64,000 nt of DNA from an uncultured Opitutia bacterium (GTDB lineage Bacteria; Verrucomicrobiota; Verrucomicrobiia; Opitutales; UBA953): NCBI GenBank assembly GCA_903855995.1, contig CAIOAN010000008.1, positions 124,001 to 188,000 of the forward strand. Direction: 5' to 3'. The translations under genes and the position numbers were made by a program. Under the pieces are notes generated by a model. The model was given only the letters and a program-made list of their open reading frames with translations. It did no database searches and was not told the DNA's origin. How positions within the stretch are numbered: position 1 is the stretch's first letter; each line of letters starts with the position of its first letter. Shown piece by piece: positions 24,037 to 28,401 of this stretch.

Positions 24037-24993
24037 ATGCGTCTTACCCCTCGCTCTGTCGCAGGCGCCCTGTTGGTTGCCTGCTCCCTACTCGCCCTCG
24101 TCGGCGGGCTTTCTGGCTGCAAGAAATCCGACCCCCGCAAGGCCGGCGAGATCTTCATCGGCTTCTCTTCCCGTGACCTCTCGGCGGAATACACCGCCAA
24201 ACTTTCTGAAGCCGTCGTGGAATACGCCAAGACGAAACCCGGCGTGCGCCTCGTGATGGTCGACGCCCAGTCCGATGCTCAGAAGCAGATCAGTCAGGTG
24301 GAGAATTTCATCTCTCAGAAGGTCGATGTGATCATCCTGAATCCCTGCGAACTTGAAGCCAGCACCCCGGCGGTCGATCGCGCCAAGGCCGCGGGCATCC
24401 CGATTGTGCTTGTGAACCAGGTCACTAAATCCGCCGGCGACGCCTACATCGGTTCGAATGATGTCGACGCTGGCCATATCGCCATGGAAGCCGTGGCCAG
24501 GAAACTCGGCGGTCAGGGCGGCGTGCTGATGATCCACGGCATCATGGGCACCTCCGCCCAGTTGCAAAGGGAGGCCGGGGCGCGCGAAGTTTTTGCCAAA
24601 TACCCGGGCCTTAAACTCGTCGACCACCAGACCGCCTCATGGGACCGTGCGAAGGCGATGGCCCTGACCGAAAACTGGATCCAAGCCCATAAGGGAAAAT
24701 TCCAGGCGGTCTTCGCCCATAACGATGAGATGGCCATGGGCGCCCTCCTCGCCCTCGAACGCGCCGGCATAAAGAAGGACGTCTATGTCATCGGCATCGA
24801 CGCCATCGCCCAGGCTCTTTCAGCCGTGAAAGAAGGACGCCTGGACGCCACGGTCTTCCAGGATGCCGTCGGCCAGGGCAAAGGCTCGGTCGATGCCGCT
24901 CTCCTGCTCGCCCGCAAGCAGCCCTGCCCTAAAGAAAACCTGATCCCCTTCCGGCTCGTCACCCGTGACAACCTCTCCGAATTCCTCAAATAA
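24037..24993 (+). CDS. Sugar ABC transporter substrate-binding lipoprotein (RbsB type)
   Basis: A 318-residue periplasmic binding protein of the LacI/RbsB fold. The N-terminus is a lipoprotein signal: hydrophobic core ending LVGGLSGC, with Cys as the probable lipidated residue, so it is likely membrane-tethered. Family features include IGFSSRDLSAEYTAKLSEAV, the QKVDVIILNPCE region, YIGSNDVDAG and AVFAHNDEMAMGALLALE. I chose the ATG at 24037; a TTG two codons upstream is in frame. It is the last component of the importer and is followed one base later by the NIPSNAP gene. Confidence 0.93.
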   Translation: MRLTPRSVAGALLVACSLLALVGGLSGCKKSDPRKAGEIFIGFSSRDLSAEYTAKLSEAVVEYAKTKPGVRLVMVDAQSDAQKQISQVENFISQKVDVIILNPCELEASTPAVDRAKAAGIPIVLVNQVTKSAGDAYIGSNDVDAGHIAMEAVARKLGGQGGVLMIHGIMGTSAQLQREAGAREVFAKYPGLKLVDHQTASWDRAKAMALTENWIQAHKGKFQAVFAHNDEMAMGALLALERAGIKKDVYVIGIDAIAQALSAVKEGRLDATVFQDAVGQGKGSVDAALLLARKQPCPKENLIPFRLVTRDNLSEFLK

Positions 24994-24994
24994 C

Positions 24995-25780
24995 ATGAAA
25001 ACCCTCCTCGCCCTCCTCGCCTTCGGCATGCTCTCGGCTTCCGCCAGCGCCGCCGAACCAGCCGACAACCGTCTCTTTGAGATGCGCGTCTACTACGCCA
25101 AGCCCGGCAAGCTCGATGCGCTCAACGCCCGCTTCCGCGACCACACCCTCAAGCTCTTCGCCAAGCACGGCATGACGAGCCTCGGCTATTTCGTCCCGGT
25201 CGACAACAAGGAGAACAAGCTCGTCTACTTCCTCGCATTTCCGGATCGCGCCGCCCACGACGCCTCATGGAAGGCTTTCGGCGCGGATCCGGATTGGAAG
25301 GCTGCCGCCAAGGAATCCGAGAAAGACGGCAAGCTCATCGACCACATCGAGAACGCCTTCCTCACCGCCACCGAGTATTCGGCCCTCGCCCAAGCCAAGA
25401 ACTACGGCGTCGGCGTCTTCGAACTCCGCACCTACACCACCGAAGCCGGCCGCCTGCCTGACCTGAACGCCCGCTTCCGCGACCACACCCTCAAGCTCTT
25501 CGAGAAGCACGGCATGACCAACGTGACCTACTGGAATCTCGCCGCCGACCAGAAGGGCGCAAAAAACACCTACGCCGCCGGCAACACGCTCATCTACCTC
25601 CTCACCCACAAATCCGAAGCCGCCGCCAAGGCTAGCTTCGACGCCTTCCGCGCCGACCCGATCTGGATCGCCGCCAAGGAAGCCTCTGAAAAGAAGGCCG
25701 GAGGCTCGCTGACCATCGCGCAGCCCAACGGCGTGAAGTCGGAGTTCCTCATCCCCGTCGACTACTCCCCGGTCAAGTAA
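24995..25780 (+). CDS. Exported NIPSNAP protein with two tandem domains
   Basis: A 261-residue protein with a signal peptide (about residues 1-20, ending SASASAA). Two NIPSNAP (ferredoxin-like, dimeric alpha-beta barrel) domains follow: FEMRVYYAKPGKLDALNARFRDHTLKLF (split here as FEMRVYYAKPGK and LNARFRDHTLKLF) from about residue 25, and FELRTYTTEAGR with the same LNARFRDHTLKLF from about 145. The two copies are nearly identical at DNA level over 56 bases (25121-25176 and 25463-25518). Function of the family is unsettled. The ATG is one base after the binding-protein stop, so it belongs to the sugar import operon, which ends at the terminator 20 bases downstream. Confidence 0.88.
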   Translation: MKTLLALLAFGMLSASASAAEPADNRLFEMRVYYAKPGKLDALNARFRDHTLKLFAKHGMTSLGYFVPVDNKENKLVYFLAFPDRAAHDASWKAFGADPDWKAAAKESEKDGKLIDHIENAFLTATEYSALAQAKNYGVGVFELRTYTTEAGRLPDLNARFRDHTLKLFEKHGMTNVTYWNLAADQKGAKNTYAAGNTLIYLLTHKSEAAAKASFDAFRADPIWIAAKEASEKKAGGSLTIAQPNGVKSEFLIPVDYSPVK

Positions 25781-25800
25781 CCCGACTAGTGGGTCAACAA

Positions 25801-25827
25801 AAGGACGGCACCATCGCCGTCCTTTTT
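25801..25827 (+). terminator. Rho-independent terminator after the NIPSNAP gene
   Basis: A perfect nine-pair stem AAGGACGGC (25801-25809) with GCCGTCCTT (25816-25824) around the loop ACCATC, continued by a run of T (five in all, 25823-25827). It ends the ten-gene plus-strand run that begins at 13391. Confidence 0.9.
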
Positions 25828-25837
25828 GTGCCTGCAC

Positions 25838-25914
25838 GAGGTAGGGACATCACCACGTGATGTCCTAATGCCTAGACACCCCACTAGGACAGCACGTGGT
25901 GCTGTCCCTACCTC
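25838..25914. repeat. REP-like doublet of inverted hairpins
   Basis: Two 33-base arms, 25838-25870 and 25882-25914, are inverted copies with 30 of 33 positions equal. Each arm folds by itself: GGACATCAC-CAC-GTGATGTCC on the left and GGACAGCAC-GTG-GTGCTGTCC on the right (plus-strand reading). The two arms differ by a T-A to G-C exchange at paired positions, which keeps both stems perfect. It lies between two convergent genes and its last two bases enter the stop codon of the oxidoreductase at 25913. The structure matches REP/BIME elements mobilised by RAYT transposases; no such transposase is in the window. Confidence 0.75.
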
Positions 25915-27178
25915 AAGCTCGACCCGGAATCGGCGGAACTTCGGCGGGTAGCTTGACGTTGCCGGTTTCGAAATCCTTGGGGCTCGGGGTGAACTTGAAG
26001 TTATAGTGGGCGGAGTTTTCGTTGGTCAGCAGGTCGGCGAAACGCACGAGCTCGCCCGTGTAGGCAGAGATGCGGCCCATGATGACGGTCAGAGTCGTCT
26101 CAGCGATACGCCGGGCGTCGTTGAGCGGCTGGCCGCTGAAGGCGCTGCGGATGAGATCCACGTGCTCCTGGACCATGGAGTCATCGGTATCCAGCTTGAT
26201 GTCCGGTACGGTAATGCCGTTCTTGGAAAATACCTTGCCGCCGCCGAAACAGGAACCCTCGGCGCCGGTGAAGAACTCACCCACGTGACCCGTCGTGCCC
26301 GTGATCTGGCGGCACTGGCTGTGGATATGCACGGCATCGCCGTAATCATAATCAACGCTGAAGAAGTCGAACATGTTACCGGTCTCGCGCCGCGCCCGGC
26401 CGCCGAAACCCAGGGCGCTCACCGGCGTCCGTCCGAGGAACCAATTGGCGACGTCGATATTATGAATATGTTGCTCGACGATATGGTCGCCGGAGAGTTC
26501 GACGAAATTGAGCCAGTTATGGTTCATATAGGATGCGTCGGATTCGCCCGAACCCCGACGTTTGAGCCAAGGCACCGTGCCGTTCCACTGGACGATCCCA
26601 CCCCGAATAGCGCCAATCGCACCCGCATCAATCAAAGCCTTGTTCTTCAAGTAAGAGGCGGCGTGCCGGCGTTGCGTACCGGCAACCACGGCCAGGCCCT
26701 TCGCCTTGGCCTTCTCGCCGGTGGCGATGATGGAGCGGGCGCCGACGGGATCGACGGCGACCGGCTTCTCAATGAAGCAGTGCTTGCCGGCATCGATGGC
26801 GGCGGCGAAATGCACCGGGCGGAATGCCGGCGGGGTCGCCATGAGCACGAAGGTGCAATCCGTGGCCATCACCTTCTGATAGGCATCATAACCCGAGAAA
26901 AGTTTGGGGGCGGGAAGTTTGTAAACCTGTCCGAGTTTCTGGACCTTGTCTTCAAAGGCATCTCCTAGGGCGACGACTTCCGGCTCGATGCCGAGAATCT
27001 TGCACGCCGCGATGAACTGCCCGAGGGCGCCCGTACCGCGACCACCGCAACCGATGAGGGCTACCTTGATCTTTGTCGGCAGTGAATTGGCGCTTAGGAC
27101 GGCGGGGGCCGCGGCTAAAGCGAGGCCGCTCAGGGCCATGGTGGATACGAAATCTCGACGCGGGATGGGGTGTTCCAT
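25913..27178 (-). CDS. Gfo/Idh/MocA family oxidoreductase, Tat-exported
   Basis: A 421-residue NAD(P)-dependent sugar oxidoreductase homologue. The signal is of twin-arginine type (HPIPRRDFVSTMALSGLALA), then VALIGCGGRGTGALGQF is the dinucleotide-binding loop (about residues 38-54). MATPPAFRPVHFAAAIDAGKH and CFIEKPVAVDP give the catalytic EKP block, and a Tat-exported subgroup segment MNHNWLNFVELSGDHIVEQHIHNIDVANW (cited in parts: SGDHIVEQHIHNID) carries the His-rich active-site strand. The true start is the ATG at 27178, CC-preceded; the longer ORF adds 25 unlikely residues. It faces the ClC gene divergently across 56 bases. Confidence 0.93.
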   Translation of the reverse strand: MEHPIPRRDFVSTMALSGLALAAAPAVLSANSLPTKIKVALIGCGGRGTGALGQFIAACKILGIEPEVVALGDAFEDKVQKLGQVYKLPAPKLFSGYDAYQKVMATDCTFVLMATPPAFRPVHFAAAIDAGKHCFIEKPVAVDPVGARSIIATGEKAKAKGLAVVAGTQRRHAASYLKNKALIDAGAIGAIRGGIVQWNGTVPWLKRRGSGESDASYMNHNWLNFVELSGDHIVEQHIHNIDVANWFLGRTPVSALGFGGRARRETGNMFDFFSVDYDYGDAVHIHSQCRQITGTTGHVGEFFTGAEGSCFGGGKVFSKNGITVPDIKLDTDDSMVQEHVDLIRSAFSGQPLNDARRIAETTLTVIMGRISAYTGELVRFADLLTNENSAHYNFKFTPSPKDFETGNVKLPAEVPPIPGRA

Positions 27179-27234
27179 GGTTTGAGATTGTGACCGATGC
27201 CGACGGGTCTCAAAGGTTTTCTCACCCCCCCACG

Positions 27235-28401
27235 ATGTCTGCCCTGACCCCAAAAAACGCCCTTCGCTGGCTAGGCCTCATCGTGGGGGTGTCATTGGCG
27301 GTCGGTGCCGCCGGGGCGGGCTTCCTCTCCGCTCTCACCTGGGTCTCCGATCAATTCAATCGGCACCACGAGCTGCTCTACGCCCTGCCCTTCCTCGGCC
27401 TTCTGATGGTCTGGATCTATGGCGTCCCCGCCAAGGCCTCTGCCGGCGGCGTGAAAGCCTTGATAGCGCAAATCCAGACTCCGGCCGCCCCTTTGCCCGC
27501 CTCGATGGCTCCGGCGATCGTCGGCACGACTCTCCTATCGCACCTCGGCGGCGCCTCTGTCGGCCGCGAAGGCACCGCGCTCCAGATGGGCGGGGCACTC
27601 GCCGACCAGTTCTCCCGCTGGTGCACCCTCGACGAACAGGAACATCGCACGCTGTTGCTCTGCGGCGTCTCGGCCGGCTTCGCGGCCGTTTTCGGAACGC
27701 CCATCGCCGCCGCAGTGTTTGCCCTCGAGTTCGTCGGTCGACGCAGCTGGCAGATAGTCCCCTGCCTCGCCACAGGCTTCCTCGCCGATTTGGCCGGTCG
27801 GAACCTCTTCCACGTCAAGCACGCTAATTACCTCCTCCCGTTGCCGGCCGAATTCTCGCTGGGTGGCGTCGGCAGTGCTCTGGCCCTCGGCCTCGCGTGC
27901 GGACTGATCGCCAAGTTTTATCTCTTCCTGCATCGACGCAATACCGCGGCCAAGCCCCTCCCGAATCCCTACGGACGCATCCTCTTCGGCGGAGTGCTTT
28001 TCGTCATCCTTGTACAGTTCGGACACCTCTACGACTTCACCGGACTGGGCTTGAGCGTGATCAGCGAATCTTTTCTCGAACCCATCCCTCCGGTCGTCTT
28101 TGCGATCAAGTTCCTGCTCACATTCCTCTGCGTCAGCTACGGTTTCCGCGGCGGCGAGGTCACCCCGCTCTTTTTCGTTGGAGTCACGCTGGGTAGCGCC
28201 GCGGGCGCCGTGCTCAGCCTACCGCTCAGCATCTGCGCCGCCCTCGGCTTCGTCGGCGTCTTCGCCGGCGCCGGCGCGGTGCCCATCGCCTGCGCCGTCA
28301 TGGCCTGCGAACTCTTCGGCATCTCGATCGGCGGCTACGCCCTGGTCACCTGCGCCGTCAGCTGGCTGATCGCCGGACGCAAGGGGCTGTATTCGGAATA
28401 A
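27235..28401 (+). CDS. ClC-family anion channel/antiporter (possibly CLC-F-like)
   Basis: A 388-residue membrane protein with about ten hydrophobic segments. The ClC motif with the gating glutamate is present as SVGREGTALQMGG, and the helix-N region as FAGAGAVPIACAVMACELFG. The usual selectivity loop GSGIP is not present: the matching stretch reads KASAGGVKAL. GREGTA rather than GREGP, and GFRGGEVTPLFFVGVTLG, recall the fluoride/proton antiporter branch (CLC-F), but I cannot confirm that by alignment. I looked for a fluoride riboswitch in the 56-base upstream gap and did not see one. The start at 27235 begins the hydrophobic domain; 54 upstream codons in the same frame are antisense to the oxidoreductase. 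Confidence 0.85.
   Translation: MSALTPKNALRWLGLIVGVSLAVGAAGAGFLSALTWVSDQFNRHHELLYALPFLGLLMVWIYGVPAKASAGGVKALIAQIQTPAAPLPASMAPAIVGTTLLSHLGGASVGREGTALQMGGALADQFSRWCTLDEQEHRTLLLCGVSAGFAAVFGTPIAAAVFALEFVGRRSWQIVPCLATGFLADLAGRNLFHVKHANYLLPLPAEFSLGGVGSALALGLACGLIAKFYLFLHRRNTAAKPLPNPYGRILFGGVLFVILVQFGHLYDFTGLGLSVISESFLEPIPPVVFAIKFLLTFLCVSYGFRGGEVTPLFFVGVTLGSAAGAVLSLPLSICAALGFVGVFAGAGAVPIACAVMACELFGISIGGYALVTCAVSWLIAGRKGLYSE

Follow-up and report, generated by a model that had tools for sequence, protein, structure and literature searches.

The window, a stretch of 64,000 nucleotides from an uncultured Opitutia bacterium whose genome assembly (G000) comprises 2.66 Mb on 13 contigs and is 97% complete, harbors two convergent genes that enclose a pair of inverted hairpins. 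A NIPSNAP-domain gene (24965–25780, plus strand) lies upstream and faces a GFO/IDH/MocA-type oxidoreductase gene (25913–27253, minus strand). The gap between them contains an intrinsic-terminator-like hairpin (25799–25826, fold z −5.5) and, separate from it, the paired hairpins at 25838–25914. This agrees with the preliminary description, which had placed the element between convergent genes right after a terminator. The element itself is intergenic, and its right arm is in immediate contact with the oxidoreductase stop codon (TGA-GGTAG), the TGA at 25913–25915 overlapping its outer edge.

The left REP unit (25838–25865, plus strand) consists of GAG, a GTAG tag (25841–25844), and the hairpin GGACATCAC-cac-GTGATGTCC (25845–25865), and represents a T-A variant arm. 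A 21-nt spacer (25866–25886) separates it from the inverted right unit (25887–25914, minus strand), in which the hairpin GGACAGCAC-cac-GTGCTGTCC (25887–25907), the consensus G-C arm, is joined to a GTAG tag (25908–25911) and GAG. On the forward strand the right unit reads GGACAGCAC-gtg-GTGCTGTCC-CTACCTC and the left one starts with GAGGTAG, and both tags thus point outward. Two inverted 33-base arms, each folding into a nine-pair hairpin, had been described before, and indeed the arms (25838–25870 and 25882–25914, 33 nt each) are 91% complementary and each forms a 9-bp hairpin with a 3-nt loop (left, −8.6 kcal/mol, z −4.5; right, −9.9 kcal/mol, z −3.8). The reported exchange of a T-A for a G-C pair was likewise recovered, with T25850-A25860 in the left arm against G25892-C25902 (plus-strand letters) in the right arm, leaving both stems perfect. 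Alternatively, the whole of 25838–25914 can fold into one long hairpin (−30.8 kcal/mol, z −9.9; equaled in stability by none of 200 shuffled sequences), which is mismatched at the positions where the arms differ. Folding of the element as RNA gave z-scores of −8.7 to −9.4. Against Rfam, the element matched long-hairpin microRNA models alone, all with scores under the gathering threshold, and an Rfam RNA family was therefore rejected.

A dispersed family of GTAG-tagged REPs

A BLAST search within G000 returned 59 matches at about 35 places, the matches outnumbering the places because the core is palindromic and many places match on both strands. Pattern searching for the tagged 25-mer with up to two mismatches revealed 33 copies, 15 of which carry the right-arm 25-mer exactly, while the reversed control 25-mer had no match in the same search, placing the element far beyond chance. 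Uniqueness in the genome had been named in advance as the result that would speak against a REP doublet; with 33 copies found, this reading stands. A chance inverted repeat was rejected on the basis of the dispersed copies, the control search, and the fold statistics. The wider proposal, either a chance repeat or just two terminators in tandem, could draw on the position directly after a terminator, but it is vanishingly improbable, as the dispersed copies also share a conserved GTAG tag and the hairpins are not followed by a T-run.

Within the genus, the REP family was detected by pattern search in 32 of 37 genomes; the same search was negative for all 20 genomes that represent other families of the order. 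The named relatives are uncultured Opitutae/Opitutales MAGs. Its features resemble those of the GTAG REP superfamily, which includes the Opitutus terrae families GTAG-17, -19, and -20 and is reported as abundant in that species (Di Nocera et al. 2013, PMC3733652). Shared traits are a palindrome of 20–40 bp with an unpaired GTAG at one end, a stem within the range of 6–13 bp, a 3-nt loop that conforms to CMA, complementary alternatives at stem residues, dimers in head-head arrangement, and a position downstream of genes; the phylum, Verrucomicrobiota, is also the same. GTAG REPs are dispersed and repeated, usually with more than 100 copies per genome; the window family, counted by itself, is clearly repeated but stays under that number, and compared by described features rather than consensus letters it differs from the O. 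terrae families in its 33 copies, most of them, as in the family at large, singletons.

In its inverted REPs, short spacer, predicted long hairpin or two-hairpin clover, compensatory changes, and collapsed single palindromes (seen here in genome G002), the element also resembles a REPIN (PMC3116915). Unlike REPINs, doublets are a small minority in this genus: a census of 57 genomes with one tight-doublet pattern (spacer 12–42) yielded seven doublets compared with some 650 tagged copies. Since tight doublets are rare and most copies single, the doublet is not the predominant replicating form of the family, and the element is REPIN-like in shape and at most a putative replicating unit. It shares the inverted REP pair with E. 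coli BIMEs, whose REP arrays have conserved linker motifs; no mosaic or array was found at the site, and no shared linker. Of the earlier designation "REP doublets (BIMEs)", the doublet was thus retained, whereas REPIN or GTAG head-head heterodimer fits better than BIME.

Several further GTAG families were seen at the loci examined. GGGCAGCACcgc, GGTCAGCACtgc, and other families occur in G000, where their RAYT was not detected, and G000:C2:161893-161966 is a hybrid head-head doublet of the present family and the GGTCAGCACtgc family, with a spacer of 21 nt as in the window element.

RAYT transposases and their REP families

A RAYT transposase had been predicted elsewhere in the genome. Four G000 genes match NF047646, the model for REP-associated tyrosine transposases, and three of these are short and flanked by REPs of the families GGATGCGATgac (C7), GGATGACCGgcc (C13), and GGCTGACCAccct (C10). 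The prediction thus held for the presence of RAYTs, but no RAYT of G000 is flanked by the window REP family, an arrangement found in congeners only. As a side observation, this one 2.7-Mb genome carries three different REP-wrapped RAYTs, each with its own GTAG family (G000:C10:43099, C13:144499, and C7:324565). A long Y1_Tnp-like gene of 323 aa at C13:102364 was rejected as driver because it has no REP flanks. The protein type encoded there (G000:C13:102364-102774; 310–323 aa, Y1 transposase-like N-terminal part, no flanking REPs) is common in the genus.

In G004, G009, G011, and G016, two inverted copies of the window REP enclose a RAYT gene encoding approximately 160 aa, and the downstream copy closely follows the RAYT stop codon; the G016 gene is located at C3:76228-76716. 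The RAYT of G035 has an intact window-family REP upstream and a downstream copy with a degenerate tag. These five cognate RAYTs form one clade (support 99/96), and the RAYT association typical of GTAG REPs was accordingly found in five congeners and not in G000. The HUH motif (HLH) and a candidate catalytic tyrosine are conserved in the RAYTs, as in E. coli TnpAREP (PDB 4ER8), to which sequence identity is low. Together with similarity to REP-associated tyrosine transposases, these features mark the proteins as RAYTs; the cognate clade matches NF047646 with E-values of about 1e-18 to 1e-21 and 68–77 bits, below the curated cut-off of 80, and the C7 RAYT of G000 exceeds this cut-off. By description, the single gene flanked by inverted REPs resembles groups 2 and 3 of Corneloup et al. 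2021 (PMC8266576), and the perfect-palindrome REPs resemble group 3.

Across 37 RAYTs of the genus, RAYT clade and flanking REP family pair one to one: the flanking REP labels require only 13 changes on the tree, the lowest number attainable, compared with a mean of 27.6 for shuffled labels (0/200 as low). Sister clades carry related hairpins, with GGGCAGCACcgc adjoining the cognate clade, followed by GGTCAGCACtgc. Two further loci deserve mention as observations in their own right. In G029:C21, a window-family REP copy is located directly upstream of the own REP of a sister-clade (GGGCAGCACcgc) RAYT, a possible nested insertion. The contig CALQLO010000040.1, which bears the name Akkermansia muciniphila in its title, encodes a RAYT of the cognate clade, a clade observed elsewhere in Opitutae MAGs only, and is probably a mislabelled bin. 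The viral contigs searched contained no cognate RAYT, and viral carriage was rejected.

The cognate RAYT was not found in G000: the best match there shares 46% identity with the cognate clade and lies between REPs of a different family, and the profile score gap is 313 bits, compared with at most 212. The window-family copies in G000 hence look orphaned. The gene could still sit in the 2–3% that the assembly lacks or where a contig ends, and REP-flanked genes are typical causes of broken assemblies. Genomes with a cognate RAYT contain 14.8 REP copies per Mb compared with 8.7 in those without (P=0.005), and their fraction of exact copies is 0.69 compared with 0.45 (P=0.017), both for draft genomes with kinship ignored. 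In E. coli, genomes without a RAYT likewise have fewer REPINs (PMC8049555). That the G000 copies are still mobile through a non-cognate RAYT, with the 46% identical protein at C7:324496 as best candidate, would be in line with the 15 exact copies among 33 and with the persistence of the family in 27 genomes for which no cognate RAYT was detected. We consider this very unlikely, given that each RAYT clade has flanking REPs of a separate family, that copy density and exact-copy fraction are lower without the cognate RAYT, and that RAYTs are specific for loop and stem in SELEX experiments (PMC8266576).

The orthologous site in related genomes

Using the NIPSNAP gene as an anchor, we located the orthologous sites in related genomes. 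Genomes G003, G014, and G015 have a NIPSNAP-oxidoreductase gap of 59–84 nt with the terminator hairpin and without a REP, and G017 and others also lack a REP at this site; many congeners do without the element here. A doublet with a T-A left arm and a G-C-type right arm is present in G000, G007, and G011, while G013 and G024 have kept the T-A left arm alone. In G002 (C83), the site holds a single palindrome with a GTAG tag on both ends, as expected for a doublet collapsed by deletion between the arms; collapse of this kind to a single palindrome has been mentioned by Bertels and Rainey (PMC3116915). In the NIPSNAP gene tree the REP carriers are not recovered as a clade, so that loss or exchange between species would have to be assumed, and one ancestral insertion would require that the element was lost several times or that species recombined with each other.

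A search of 38 genomes revealed the T-A arm in five species and at this orthologous site only, which indicates a local, inherited pair swap and led us to reject the T-A arm as an amplified REP subfamily. The remaining row of this search was a G.A-mismatched copy in G000 at C11:53491 (GGACAGCAC/GTGATGTCC). The main rival explanation for the origin of the pair change needs no selection: quasipalindrome template switching during replication may have copied one point change onto the other half of the hairpin. The mismatched copy in the same genome is of the type expected as its intermediate, the change is local to one site, and template switching is an accepted source of paired hairpin changes (PMC8794818), and we give this origin a little less than an even chance.

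REP copies at gene ends

The hairpins frequently lie at gene ends. Of 26 copies examined, nine have a long same-strand open frame whose stop lies at −4 to +7 nt relative to the GTAG side; in five of these nine, the stop codon is the TAG of GTAG itself. On the opposite side of the hairpin, none of the 26 copies has the end of a long frame within this distance. The frames stopped by the TAG comprise those of an aldose epimerase, a PfkB kinase, a dicarboxylate symporter, an AMP-binding enzyme, and one without assignment. Pfam searches indicated that six of the nine frames are coding (five strong family matches and the window oxidoreductase); of the remaining three, one gave a weak match below the cut-off and two gave none. 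Judged by open frames rather than annotation, nine of the 26 copies are not crossed by any open frame of 300 nt or longer, and many abut stop codons.

These positions, the contact with the oxidoreductase stop codon, and the RNA fold z-scores could be taken to mean that the element is mainly a functional RNA, a 3′ untranslated hairpin that stabilizes or ends the oxidoreductase transcript and whose REP origin is incidental. This appears unlikely, as a separate terminator is already there, even at REP-less sites, many congeners lack the element, the hairpin is linked to a family of transposases, and a location mainly downstream of genes has already been reported for REPs (Di Nocera et al. 2013, PMC3733652).

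Unequal arms of tight doublets

Among doublets with spacers of 20–25 nt, five of six are compensated heterodimers, in which GGACGGCAC or GGACATCAC is set against GGACAGCAC. As those of G007 and G035 look orthologous, this corresponds to about four independent heterodimers compared with one homodimer; GGACGGCAC/GGACAGCAC doublets recur, at about three loci. In a hand count of five fully listed genomes, 7 of 143 copies were compensated at these positions, and given this frequency the chance of at least four heterodimers in five is about 4e-4, for about five independent loci only. The spacers of the doublets share only their first bases. While the arm difference costs a single hairpin 1.3 kcal/mol (−9.9 versus −8.6), it weakens the long hairpin by 8.2 kcal/mol, as replacing the T-A arm with a consensus arm lowers the latter from −30.8 to −39.0 kcal/mol.

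In line with these observations, Di Nocera et al. (PMC3733652) described a preference for heterodimers and suggested an escape from hairpin nucleases, and Bertels and Rainey (PMC3116915) suggested the less stable clover form as the one recognized by the RAYT. Inverted REP doublets may thus be filtered or selected for a compensated arm difference, by which the arms stay perfect RAYT targets and the long hairpin is weakened, a tentative proposal to which we assign a rather low probability. If true, the pair swap inherited in five species would represent adaptive compensation within a mobile DNA element rather than within an RNA gene. Template switching alone leaves the prevalence of unequal arms in tight doublets unexplained, and if it took place from one arm of a doublet to the other, the arms would come to match. 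The two are compatible, since template switching could make the pair change and selection could keep it.

Discussion

The window element is very probably a head-head doublet (REPIN) of a GTAG-tagged family that was inserted by a RAYT, with the cognate RAYT since lost and the pair difference kept. We observed the inverted tagged hairpins, their repetition, the REP-RAYT-REP arrangement in congeners, empty sites, and the pairing of RAYT clades with REP families. From these we infer insertion by the RAYT, its loss from the lineage, and selection for unequal arms. The inserting enzyme would be an IS200/IS605-like HUH tyrosine transposase of the RAYT clade paired with GGACAGCACcacGTGCTGTCC, which presumably nicks single-stranded REP DNA at the tag. 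In an ancestor, the enzyme would have moved the doublet to its present place, with the NIPSNAP terminator on one side and the end of the neighboring gene on the other. With subsequent loss of the cognate RAYT in this lineage, the G000 copies would be fossil or only cross-mobilized. The T-A/G-C difference would have arisen at this locus and may have been retained because the small hairpins stay perfect while the competing long two-arm hairpin weakens; unweakened, the latter might be unstable in replication or poorly recognized.

GTAG REPs in Verrucomicrobia, the preference for heterodimers, and the pairing of REPs with RAYTs are known from the literature. What is new is the window REP family with its cognate RAYT clade, together with the history of the compensated pair at this locus. 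Our analysis adds a verrucomicrobial genus with about a dozen RAYT clades, each with its own REP hairpin, which offers natural material for studying how stem and loop are read by RAYTs. At this one locus, one can further ask whether selection or template switching is the source of compensatory changes in DNA hairpins, and the locus bears on why REP doublets prefer unequal arms.
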